Made by a program: the position numbers and the translations under genes. This document shows positions 41,022 through 48,692 of a stretch of DNA of 64,000 nt, in pieces (the stretch's first letter is position 1; every line of letters begins with the position of its first letter). The stretch covers positions 310,001-374,000 of the forward strand of contig NZ_QENZ01000003.1 in assembly GCF_003096835.1 (NCBI RefSeq), written 5' to 3'. This DNA comes from Balneicella halophila. GTDB taxonomy: Bacteria; Bacteroidota; Bacteroidia; Bacteroidales; Balneicellaceae. Below the pieces are notes generated by a model. It saw only the letters and a list, made by a program, of their open reading frames with translations. It did not search any database and was not told the DNA's origin.

Positions 41022-42954
<1,933 letters not shown>

Positions 42955-45681: not shown

Positions 45682-45733
45682 GACGATTTTTTGAATTTTA
45701 ATTGAAGACTACTTAAGATTTTACTATCACTGC

Positions 45734-45741
45734 CAAATTTA
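45734..45741 (-). promoter_or_regulatory. -7 box (TAAATTTG) of the AsmA-family gene
   Basis: Perfect TAnnTTTG on the minus strand, 52 nt before the ATG at 45681. Confidence 0.4.
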
Positions 45742-45764
45742 TGCCACGATAGTTTAATAGTACT

Positions 45765-45805
45765 AAAAAAGAGGTTATTACACAAAAATTTGTAAAACCT
45801 CTTTT
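45765..45805 (-). terminator. Rho-independent terminator of rpiB
   Basis: On the minus strand AAAAGAGGTT and AACCTCTTTT form a 10-bp stem (plus-strand arms 45796-45805 and 45767-45776), with extra ACAAA/TTTGT pairing in the loop and Ts following. Confidence 0.75.
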
Positions 45806-45822
45806 AAAAAATCTGAACTATA

Positions 45823-46254
45823 TTATGAACAAGCTATTTTATTAACTCTTCGTTCATGGCGTCCGCCTTCAAAATCTGTAGTAAAAAATACTTCTGTGAT
45901 TTCTTCCGCTAATTCATAAGCAATAAATCGAGCAGGGAGTCCAAGCACGTTTGCATTATTATGCTGACGGGCTAATTCTGCCAACTGTTTACTCCAACAC
46001 AATGCAGCCCTCACATTTTGATGCTTGTTAACAGTCATCGTAATACCATTCCCACTACCACAAATGACCACTCCTTTATCACAAACACCATCATCTATAG
46101 CTTTCCCCAACTGATGTGCAAAGTCTGGATAATCTACAGAATCAGTACCATTTGTACCAAAATCCGTCACATCAAATCCTTTATTTTCAAGGTATTTCTT
46201 TATTTTATCCTTATAACCTACTCCTGCATGATCAGCAGCTATTCCTATTTTCAT
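45823..46254 (-). CDS. rpiB: Ribose 5-phosphate isomerase B
   Basis: 143 aa RpiB/LacA family. AADHAG at the start (Asp8, His9), catalytic Cys65 in VICGSGNGI and the phosphate-binding GGRHERRV near the end. It interconverts ribose 5-phosphate and ribulose 5-phosphate in the pentose phosphate pathway. The upstream flank is the candidate oriC. Confidence 0.94.
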   Translation of the reverse strand: MKIGIAADHAGVGYKDKIKKYLENKGFDVTDFGTNGTDSVDYPDFAHQLGKAIDDGVCDKGVVICGSGNGITMTVNKHQNVRAALCWSKQLAELARQHNNANVLGLPARFIAYELAEEITEVFFTTDFEGGRHERRVNKIACS

Positions 46255-46310
46255 AATTTTATTTTTTTGTTAATGAATTCCTTTTTAATGTTACCAAATT
46301 GTTAACGGAT

Positions 46311-46626
46311 TGTGCATAAATAATCATAAGATTTGAAAAATATACTTGCTAAATTCAAATAAAAGTATAATCTAAATTTACTTTCATTCTATGCTGTTCA
46401 AAAACTACATTTTTACACAAAGTTCTTCCCGCTCTTATCCACAATAAAAAGACAAAATATAATCAAATTTTATACACAGTGTTAAGATATCAACATTGTT
46501 TATAACTTTTCTATTTATCTATATAGTAAGGATTTAATTTTATAATAAAGTGTAAATATACTCCATAATTCATTTCATATCAATATTTCAAAAAATATTC
46601 TGTAAAAGTTATTATTGTAATTCACA
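46311..46626. other. oriC: Candidate chromosomal replication origin (DnaA-box cluster)
   Basis: Within a 594-bp gene-poor AT-rich stretch, matches to the DnaA box TTATNCACA occur at 46435-46443 (TTATCCACA), 46470-46478 (TTATACACA) and, on the minus strand, 46311-46319 (TTATGCACA). One-mismatch versions lie at 46411-46419 (TTTTACACA) and 46618-46626 (TAATTCACA). Runs of A/T suitable for unwinding follow at ~46500-46690. dnaA is not in the window, but in many Bacteroidetes oriC is not beside dnaA. Confidence 0.5.
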
Positions 46627-46741
46627 GCCTATATACATCATCATTTTTTCTTTTTAAATTTAAAAAAATAAATACATATAATAGTATAATGTGTATTGAT
46701 AACTTCTTTGAAGGATTTACTCTTTTCTCTAAACGAATCTC

Positions 46742-46749
46742 TAACTTTG
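46742..46749 (+). promoter_or_regulatory. -7 box (TAACTTTG) before a 50-codon open frame
   Basis: Perfect TAnnTTTG on the plus strand at the edge of the candidate origin, 24 nt before the ATG at 46774. Confidence 0.4.
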
Positions 46750-46773
46750 TAGTAACAAATTAAAACTAAAATT

Positions 46774-46926
46774 ATGACTTCTTCCTACACTCCTAATTCT
46801 GTATTTTATAAGACTACTGAAATTGATTCTAAAAATATAAGTTTTATTCTATATGATCACAAAAGATTGATAATCAGAAACTTCAAGTTTGATATGTCTG
46901 CCAAAGAAAAGAGGGTAATTTTCTGA
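46774..46926 (+). CDS. Possible small protein overlapping the 3' end of the LD-carboxypeptidase gene
   Basis: 50 aa frame (MTSSYTPNSVFYKTTEID...) with a -7 box 24 nt upstream. Its second half overlaps the opposite-strand carboxypeptidase gene by 78 nt. No family recognised, no signal peptide. The first 75 nt are free of overlap and have normal-looking codon use. It could be a small protein, an antisense transcript or chance. Confidence 0.3.
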   Translation: MTSSYTPNSVFYKTTEIDSKNISFILYDHKRLIIRNFKFDMSAKEKRVIF

Positions 46927-47748
46927 AATATGGCCTGCAGGAAAATCAAAAATTACTGGAAAGTCGTAGGAAGAAATGCAATCGTAAATGATTTGATGAA
47001 TAGACTTTCCAAACTCCGGTTCGTAGTCAATATCTGTAAAACTACCAACTATCAATCCTTTTAAGCAGGATAAGCTCCCGGATAGTTTTAAAGAAGTCAT
47101 CATCTGGTCAATTTTATGTATAGGTTCACCAACATCTTCAATAAACAATATTTTATTTTTCATCTCATAGCTAAAATCTGTACTCAAAATATTAAAAAAT
47201 GTTGCTAGATTTCCTCCAATCAATTCTCCTTCGGTCTTGCCTAACTTAGTGAGTTTGTTTGACGTTATTTTATACTCTAACGATTCTCCAAATAGTGCTT
47301 TACGGAAATATTCTAGGGTTTGTTGAGATGTATCTTCTTTTGATAAGTTCACCGGCATAGGAGCATGTAGCGTTTGACATTTTAAAACGCGATTAAAATA
47401 GCTGTGAAAAACGCTAATGTCGCTAAAACCAATGAGCCATTTCGGATATTTTTTGAATTGTTCAAAACTCAATTTGTTGATAAGATGAATACAACCATAA
47501 CCTCCGCGATTACACAAAATAGCTTTGGCTTCAGTATCATCCAGTGCCATTTGCATATCACTTAAGCGTTCTTCAATGGTACCAGAAAAACGGTAATATT
47601 CATCAAAACAATTAGGTGTAATTTTCACTTTCAGTCCCCAACTTTCTAGGATTGATACTGTTGGAATAACTTGCTCTTTAGAAATTTTTCCTGCTGGTGA
47701 TACCAATATTATTGTATCTCCTTTTTGTAAATGATTCGGTTTTATCAT
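46849..47748 (-). CDS. Muramoyltetrapeptide (LD-)carboxypeptidase, S66 family
   Basis: 299 aa. Family motifs: ILVSPAGKIS at the N-terminus, ILCNRGGYGC, the nucleophile Ser in GFSDISVFHS, IEDVGEPIHKIDQM (catalytic Glu) and DFPAGHISEN (catalytic His). It trims the terminal D-Ala from murein tetrapeptides during recycling, giving the tripeptide used by Mpl (11-12 kb in this window). There is no signal peptide, so it is cytoplasmic. Confidence 0.9.
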   Translation of the reverse strand: MIKPNHLQKGDTIILVSPAGKISKEQVIPTVSILESWGLKVKITPNCFDEYYRFSGTIEERLSDMQMALDDTEAKAILCNRGGYGCIHLINKLSFEQFKKYPKWLIGFSDISVFHSYFNRVLKCQTLHAPMPVNLSKEDTSQQTLEYFRKALFGESLEYKITSNKLTKLGKTEGELIGGNLATFFNILSTDFSYEMKNKILFIEDVGEPIHKIDQMMTSLKLSGSLSCLKGLIVGSFTDIDYEPEFGKSIHQIIYDCISSYDFPVIFDFPAGHISENYPLFFGRHIKLEVSDYQSFVII

Positions 47749-47844
47749 AAAACATAAAAATATAAAAATTTTATAGAAAGTAGAGAAATTCTCTTATTTA
47801 ATAAGGTTTAACACCTTTTTTAATAACTTAAGAAGTTTCTGCAA

Positions 47845-47852
47845 TATATTTG
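47845..47852 (+). promoter_or_regulatory. -7 box (TATATTTG) of a possible small RNA or early rluA leader
   Basis: Perfect TAnnTTTG, ~60 nt before the hairpin at 47910-47943. The gene start at 48000 has its own -7 box at 47967, so this promoter may serve a separate short transcript. Confidence 0.35.
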
Positions 47853-47909
47853 TATCATAAAATAAAAAAATAAGTTTTTTCATAGTTTAGTAATTTAGTT
47901 TTAAGGTTT

Positions 47910-47943
47910 AGAACCCTATTCAGGACACTGAGTAGGGTTCTTT
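47910..47943 (+). terminator. Terminator-like hairpin upstream of the rluA-type gene
   Basis: AGAACCCTATT (47910-47920) pairs with AGTAGGGTTCT (47931-47941; one G-U). The following T tract is short (CTTTAG). No plus-strand gene precedes it, so it would end a small RNA or act in a leader. Confidence 0.45.
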
Positions 47944-47966
47944 AGTTACTATAGATTATAAAGCAG

Positions 47967-47974
47967 TATCTTTG
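47967..47974 (+). promoter_or_regulatory. -7 box (TATCTTTG) of the rluA-type gene
   Basis: Perfect TAnnTTTG, 25 nt before the ATG at 48000 and 13 nt before the alternative ATG at 47988. Confidence 0.45.
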
Positions 47975-47999
47975 CATTAAATATCTAATGTGTAAAACA

Positions 48000-48692
48000 A
48001 TGAAAAGTTTAGACGTATTATACGAAGACAACCATATCATAGCTGTTAATAAACCGGCGGGTGTACTTGTACAAGGTGATAAGACAGGTGATGAGCCGTT
48101 GTCAGAAAAAGTTAAGGCATATATCAAGAAAAAATATAAGAAACCCGGTGATGTTTATTTAGGAATACCTCATCGTATAGATCGTCCTGTGAGTGGAGTT
48201 GTTGTTTTTGCACGTACCAGTAAGGCTTTAACACGGTTGAATAAAATGTTTCAAGCCAAGGATAAAGAGATTCAAAAGATATATTGGGCTATTGTAGAAA
48301 ACACCCCACGTGAAGATGAAGAAGTACTACAAAATTATCTTCGTAAAAATCCGAATCAAAATAAGTCATACGTTTGTGCAACGGCTAAAGATGGTGCTAA
48401 ATTGAGTACTTTGGAATATAGGTTATTAGCACACTCACAAAAATATTTTTTATTGGAGGTAAAATTACATACAGGTCGTCATCATCAGATAAGATGTCAA
48501 TTGGCAGCTATTGGAAACCCCATACGCGGTGACTTAAAGTATGGTGCTAAACGTTCTATTGAAGGAGGAGGTATCGGATTACATGCACGTGTGCTTAGAT
48601 TTATACATCCTGTTAAAAAAGAGCCTATAGAAATTGTTGCTCCAGTCCCTAAAGAGAATATTTGGCAAGATTTACAACAAATCGTCGGTTAA
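48000..48692 (+). CDS. RluA-family pseudouridine synthase
   Basis: 230 aa from ATG 48000 (MKSLDVLYEDNHIIA); an ATG at 47988 adds four residues. The catalytic loop is HRIDRPVSGVVVFA with the essential Asp, and the RluA-type KPAGVLVQGD and HHQIRCQLAAIG are present. No S4 domain, which separates it from RluC/RluD. It modifies rRNA or tRNA uridines; the exact site is unknown. It overlaps the convergent cdd gene by 4 nt. Confidence 0.9.
   Translation: MKSLDVLYEDNHIIAVNKPAGVLVQGDKTGDEPLSEKVKAYIKKKYKKPGDVYLGIPHRIDRPVSGVVVFARTSKALTRLNKMFQAKDKEIQKIYWAIVENTPREDEEVLQNYLRKNPNQNKSYVCATAKDGAKLSTLEYRLLAHSQKYFLLEVKLHTGRHHQIRCQLAAIGNPIRGDLKYGAKRSIEGGGIGLHARVLRFIHPVKKEPIEIVAPVPKENIWQDLQQIVG

Follow-up and report, generated by a model that had tools for sequence, protein, structure and literature searches.

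A DnaA-box cluster upstream of rpiB as the probable chromosomal replication origin of Balneicella halophila

The rpiB–LD-carboxypeptidase intergenic region

The assembly of Balneicella halophila comprises 2,089,523 bases in 11 contigs (C1–C11). The window analysed here is the 64,000-nucleotide stretch C3:310001-374000 of contig C3 (1,085,555 bases), and positions given without a contig refer to this window. The sugar-metabolism gene rpiB and an S66 LD-carboxypeptidase gene flank an intergenic stretch that carries six DnaA-box or DnaA-box-like sites (Table 1). The first-pass annotation had described this gap as AT-rich with three exact matches to TTATNCACA, and both points hold. It had also counted two one-mismatch sites within 320 bp; the clustering stands, in that all six sites (three exact and three one-mismatch) span 46311-46626 (316 bp), whereas the number of one-mismatch sites is three rather than two. 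Two stretches near the boxes are particularly A+T-rich (86% and 90%), and the entire gap is AT-rich too (79% A+T).

Table 1. Features of the proposed oriC and its flanking genes (window coordinates)
Feature	Position	Strand	Basis or remark
rpiB	45823..46254	-	Pfam PF02502, E=6.4e-57
Intergenic stretch, proposed oriC	46255..46848		594 bp, 21% G+C; flanked by rpiB and the LD-carboxypeptidase gene
DnaA box, exact (TTATGCACA)	46311..46319	-	motif search
DnaA-box-like, one mismatch (TTTTACACA)	46411..46419	+	one-mismatch scan
DnaA box, E. coli consensus (TTATCCACA)	46435..46443	+	motif search, exact
DnaA box, exact to TTATNCACA (TTATACACA)	46470..46478	+	motif search
DnaA-box-like, one mismatch (TTATAAACA)	46497..46505	-	one-mismatch scan
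Candidate unwinding element beside box core	46501..46550		86% A+T; assigned from composition only
DnaA-box-like, one mismatch (TAATTCACA)	46618..46626	+	one-mismatch scan
Second candidate unwinding element	46651..46700		90% A+T; assigned from composition only
S66 LD-carboxypeptidase gene	46849..47748	-	Pfam PF02016 and PF17676

A 50-codon open reading frame (46774-46926, plus strand) lies partly in the gap and overlaps, in antisense orientation, the 3′ end of the gene for LD-carboxypeptidase; it has no Pfam match. Upstream of it, at 46742-46749, is TAACTTTG, which we take to be a Bacteroidota -7-like element. Regulatory RNA in the gap region was considered and rejected, as an Rfam search of 45700-47100 gave no match at E<=1. 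Iteron-like repeats in the gap were likewise rejected, only short AT-rich pairs being seen. Five plasmid records show similarity to 45800-48000, all of them inside rpiB and none in the gap, which sits on a 1.09-Mb contig with housekeeping genes.

Box density was scored by counting 2 for each exact TTATNCACA site and 1 for each one-mismatch site, summed per 320-bp window of sequence. The complete listing for the 2.09-Mb genome contains 130 exact sites; three of them fall within 500 bp of one another in the gap cluster only, and pairs within 500 bp occur at four other places. When 130 sites were placed uniformly, regardless of base composition, an equally tight triple arose in 125 of 20000 simulations. 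The window as a whole holds 10 exact sites against 3.34 expected, and at least 10 were reached in 1 of 100 shuffles. The sample scored in this way covered 957,553 bases, or 46% of the genome, with the window among them; its highest 320-bp score is that of the gap cluster (9), and the best score elsewhere in this sample is 6, at C5:197,031 (L057:17031). A similar box density in many other intergenic regions, which according to the first-pass annotation would speak against an origin, was thus not found: there is no second exact triple in the genome, and nothing as high-scoring in the sampled 46%.

The genome encodes DnaA, as a DnaA-dependent oriC requires. A profile search of the genome returned a single Bac_DnaA_C match (C4:323435, E=2.8e-26). 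The gap, at C3:356 kb, is far from both ends of C3 and dnaA is on C4, so that the arrangement with oriC beside dnaA does not apply. A weaker box cluster of score 5 (one exact and three one-mismatch sites; L036) is present at C4:322069-322388, where it lies near the inferred dnaA start and possibly serves autoregulation.

GC skew and chromosome layout

Skew was measured at fourfold-degenerate sites on sampled contig stretches, with plus-strand and minus-strand genes taken apart so that gene orientation is not mistaken for replication strand. On C3, a basin at C3:325-420 kb marks the change of the orientation-corrected skew from minus to plus, and the proposed origin, at C3:356.3 kb, is inside it. 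Between C3:180-300 kb and 420-500 kb, the fourfold skew rises from -0.137 to +0.113 in plus-strand genes and from +0.004 to +0.146 in minus-strand genes. Left of the window on C3, it is negative in both gene orientations in four of the six sampled stretches, and from 420 kb on the mean of the two orientations is at least 0 in 12 of 12. A GC-skew minimum far from the site, which had been named as evidence against an origin, is therefore not what C3 displays.

The cumulative-skew check proposed in the first-pass annotation places a basin around the site but does not single out the gap within it. The cumulative curve is flat over ~95 kb (about 325-420 kb), with no sharp minimum, and the raw skew minimum at C3:377,744 is 21 kb from the proposed origin. 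Pinpointing the origin by change-point likelihood was given up as ambiguous: there are two optima, at C3:334.5 kb and 418 kb, neither of them at the gap, and the proposed origin is 3.9-4.7 lnL units lower. Past inversions about the origin may be one cause of the flat basin.

Elsewhere in the genome, C4 has a positive two-orientation mean skew in nine of nine sampled stretches, with no turn. Skew on C5 passes from positive to negative at about 200-240 kb, opposite to the turn on C3 and as expected of a terminus. The remaining contigs, all small (C1, C2 and C6–C11; about 131 kb together), are unplaced; of those measured, the two-orientation mean is positive in C6 and C11 and negative in C7–C10, several of these values coming from few sites. 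With C4 on the other arm, the arms from the gap would measure, by the lengths of the contigs, about 0.95 and 1.0 Mb, a hypothetical contig order with which the data are only compatible. The rpsL-rpsG-fusA genes and the ribosomal-protein genes next to them, recognised by eye at C3:791.9-800 kb on the plus strand, are co-directional with a rightward fork. A leftward fork would run head-on into groEL (41317-42954, plus strand), which is 3.3 kb to the left of the gap.

Boxes and skew upstream of rpiB in other Bacteroidota

Within the order, the comparison upstream of rpiB used a set of 60 genomes including B. halophila; a search recovered RpiB from 54 of the 59 relatives, and 29 of these gave loci. 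A score of at least 5 within 600 bp upstream of rpiB occurs in 6 of the 29 loci (five of the 29 upstream regions being incomplete): L086 (11), L065 (8), L078 (8), L068 (7, upstream incomplete), L072 (6) and L090 (5). The other 23 score below 5. The strongest same-order cluster, that of L086 (G048:C291, 23233 onwards), reaches its score of 11 in 600 bp with 17% G+C.

In named Bacteroidota, the best 80 of 584 RpiB loci were taken, a choice that favours RpiBs of high similarity; 76 of these had at least 600 bp upstream and were used, and four were dropped. Among these loci of the best 80, a score of at least 5 is found upstream of rpiB in 18 of 76 versus 2 of 831 upstream regions of other genes in the same loci, and a score of at least 6 in 13 of 76 versus 0 of 831. 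When only upstream regions with at least 250 noncoding bases are compared, the proportions with a score of at least 5 are 18 of 35 for rpiB versus 0 of 130 for other genes, again in the best 80 of 584. The loci scoring at least 5 in this sample include Psychroflexus, Lentiprolixibacter, Kordia, Chryseobacterium, Crocinitomix and Flavobacterium. Psychroflexus aurantiacus (L157) has the strongest rpiB cluster of the best 80 (score 14), and its 700 bp upstream of rpiB contain six exact TTATNCACA boxes. Over the same 700 bp, the score is 0 in Bacteroides heparinolyticus, Muribaculaceae and Capnocytophaga, 2 in a Bacteroidaceae MAG and 0-1 in five of five Paludibacteraceae loci; given these low scores, the rpiB linkage is not phylum-wide. 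In all 10 named genomes tested, dnaA and rpiB are on different contigs. Among 16 loci whose neighbourhoods were inspected, all of them chosen for having rpiB, the genes on the far side vary: 10 have an rnr-like gene (recognised by eye) near rpiB and six have other genes.

Local skew was computed for the 47 of the 80 loci (best 80 of 584) that have full 10-kb flanks. A raw minus-to-plus flip at rpiB is present in 10 of 14 boxed loci (score of at least 5), 5 of 11 intermediate loci and 5 of 22 unboxed loci, one of the 10 flipping boxed loci doing so only barely (left value -0.000). The raw minimum is at most 1.5 kb from the rpiB start in 6 of 14, 4 of 11 and 2 of 22 loci, respectively. The left-right skew difference is larger at loci with a score of at least 4 (n=17) than at those with 0-1 (n=22), with p=0.0007 for raw skew and p=0.049 at fourfold sites. 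The four boxed loci without a local flip are those of Psychroflexus aurantiacus, Lentiprolixibacter, P. halocasei and Kordia.

Wider skew sampling covered seven named genomes. In F. circumlabens there is a clear turn at rpiB, and the raw minimum of 60 kb is 692 bp from the rpiB start. Flavobacterium sp. HSC-32F16 has a raw turn at rpiB, with fourfold values uneven on both sides, and its raw minimum of 60 kb is 703 bp from the rpiB start. In Kaistella, the turn is between about 315 and 336 kb, with rpiB at 356 kb, and the raw minimum within 60 kb is 39.5 kb from rpiB. No clear turn at rpiB was seen in the boxed Psychroflexus aurantiacus and Lentiprolixibacter, nor in the unboxed Capnocytophaga and Cyclobacteriaceae. 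For box density within 60 kb, the rpiB upstream region is tied for top in HSC-32F16 (5), top in Kaistella (4) and second in F. circumlabens (4, behind a score of 5 at a site that overlaps rpiB itself). In genomes G028, G055 and G039, raw skew is negative to the left and positive to the right of rpiB, with a contribution from gene orientation and no clear turn at fourfold sites. The flip in G003 (score 4) is confined to raw skew; neither G059 (score 1) nor G005 (score 3) has a skew turn at rpiB, and the skew of G048 comes from one stretch.

Proposed origin function, alternatives and known origins

Four findings come directly from computation: the box cluster, its standing as the sole exact triple in the genome, the skew transition in which it lies and the repeated association with rpiB. 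From them we conclude that the rpiB–LD-carboxypeptidase gap is very probably the chromosomal oriC, opened by DnaA. The candidate oriC away from dnaA proposed in the first-pass annotation thus gains support from the boxes, the C3 skew basin and the rpiB-upstream clusters of relatives. DnaA binding, melting and firing at the gap are predicted by analogy with the established DnaA/oriC mechanism: DnaA from the sole dnaA gene found, on the other contig, would bind the box core (46311-46505), melt an adjacent AT-rich stretch (46501-46550 or 46651-46700) and load the helicase, with two forks as the outcome.

The boxes might instead form a DnaA-responsive promoter or a titration site of the datA/DARS type, with the true origin elsewhere in the 325-420 kb basin. 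Compatible with this are the ~95-kb width of the skew basin and the likelihood maxima off the gap; moreover, the score-5 cluster at C4:322,069 near the inferred dnaA start implies that boxes need not mean an origin. We nevertheless consider this explanation improbable. C3:325-420 kb was scanned in full, and apart from the gap cluster nothing in it exceeds score 5; in addition, a titration site would not explain why the raw skew minimum of 60 kb falls at the region upstream of rpiB in two Flavobacterium genomes. Mere chance, by which an AT-rich rpiB promoter region happens to hold DnaA-box-like 9-mers, is more improbable still, to a point where we give it very little credence: the gap has the sole triple among 130 exact sites, the relatives with at least 250 noncoding bases show the same enrichment at rpiB over other genes, and few of the simulations match the triple, although these were uniform and blind to composition, A+T makes up 79% of the gap and the consensus itself is AT-rich.

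It is likely, in our view, that oriC has an ancient and conserved location upstream of rpiB in much of Bacteroidota. This location would probably extend to many Flavobacteriia and several families of Bacteroidales, and oriC appears to have been kept beside rpiB though dnaA is elsewhere and other neighbours have changed. That oriC is away from dnaA in Bacteroidetes is already described; it is commonly far from dnaA, according to PMC4755523, which cites DoriC. The recurring rpiB–oriC linkage was not found in the literature searched, the scope of which lay outside DoriC and Table S2 of Ori-Finder 2022. The portion of the Ori-Finder 2022 report dealing with lineage-dependent indicator genes refers to that table (PMC10225481), and rpiB may already be among them. 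If the linkage is true, rpiB is a usable oriC marker gene for Bacteroidota draft genomes, which, as in B. halophila, often have no clean skew minimum and in which a conserved neighbour gene helps to place the origin. Once the origin is placed in a draft, growth rates could be estimated from read depth, origin plasmids could be built and DnaA control could be studied. The linkage also raises the question of why the origin stays with rpiB.

The basal unwinding system of the B. subtilis oriC, as set out in the relevant part of PMC8287927, resembles the gap in having DnaA boxes beside an AT-rich stretch. The gap differs from it in that dnaA is not adjacent and there is no DnaA-trio array above chance. 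In a search by the trio definition given there (PMC8287927), with an assumed orientation relative to the box, 36 of 200 Markov resamplings scored as high as the best match in the gap, and no DnaA-trio stands beside any of the three exact boxes; the same account gives 15% as the share of genomes in which DnaA-trios were not found (PMC8287927). Blattabacterium strain Bge likewise has a Bacteroidota origin that is not beside dnaA and was placed by skew, but its genome is described as being without dnaA and DnaA boxes, and its origin is in dapB rather than at rpiB (PMC2768785). Flavobacterium sp. HSC-32F16 (L144) and F. circumlabens (L170) share with the gap box-like sites directly upstream of rpiB (scores 6 and 4, respectively); unlike the gap, neither has an exact TTATNCACA box within 700 bp upstream of rpiB, and both have an rnr-like gene on the other side, at most 3 kb away. 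The predicted oriC of Prevotella intermedia OMA14, as outlined in the origin passage of PMC4755523, is also from Bacteroidota, with DnaA boxes at a skew transition and dnaA distant, although that genome, unlike that of B. halophila, has two chromosomes. The predicted oriC of Elizabethkingia meningoseptica G4076 (Flavobacteriaceae) is 649 bp long according to PMC8994065 and contains three DnaA boxes and AT-rich DUEs; it lies at 740.7 kb and dnaA at 2613 kb, away from dnaA like the gap.
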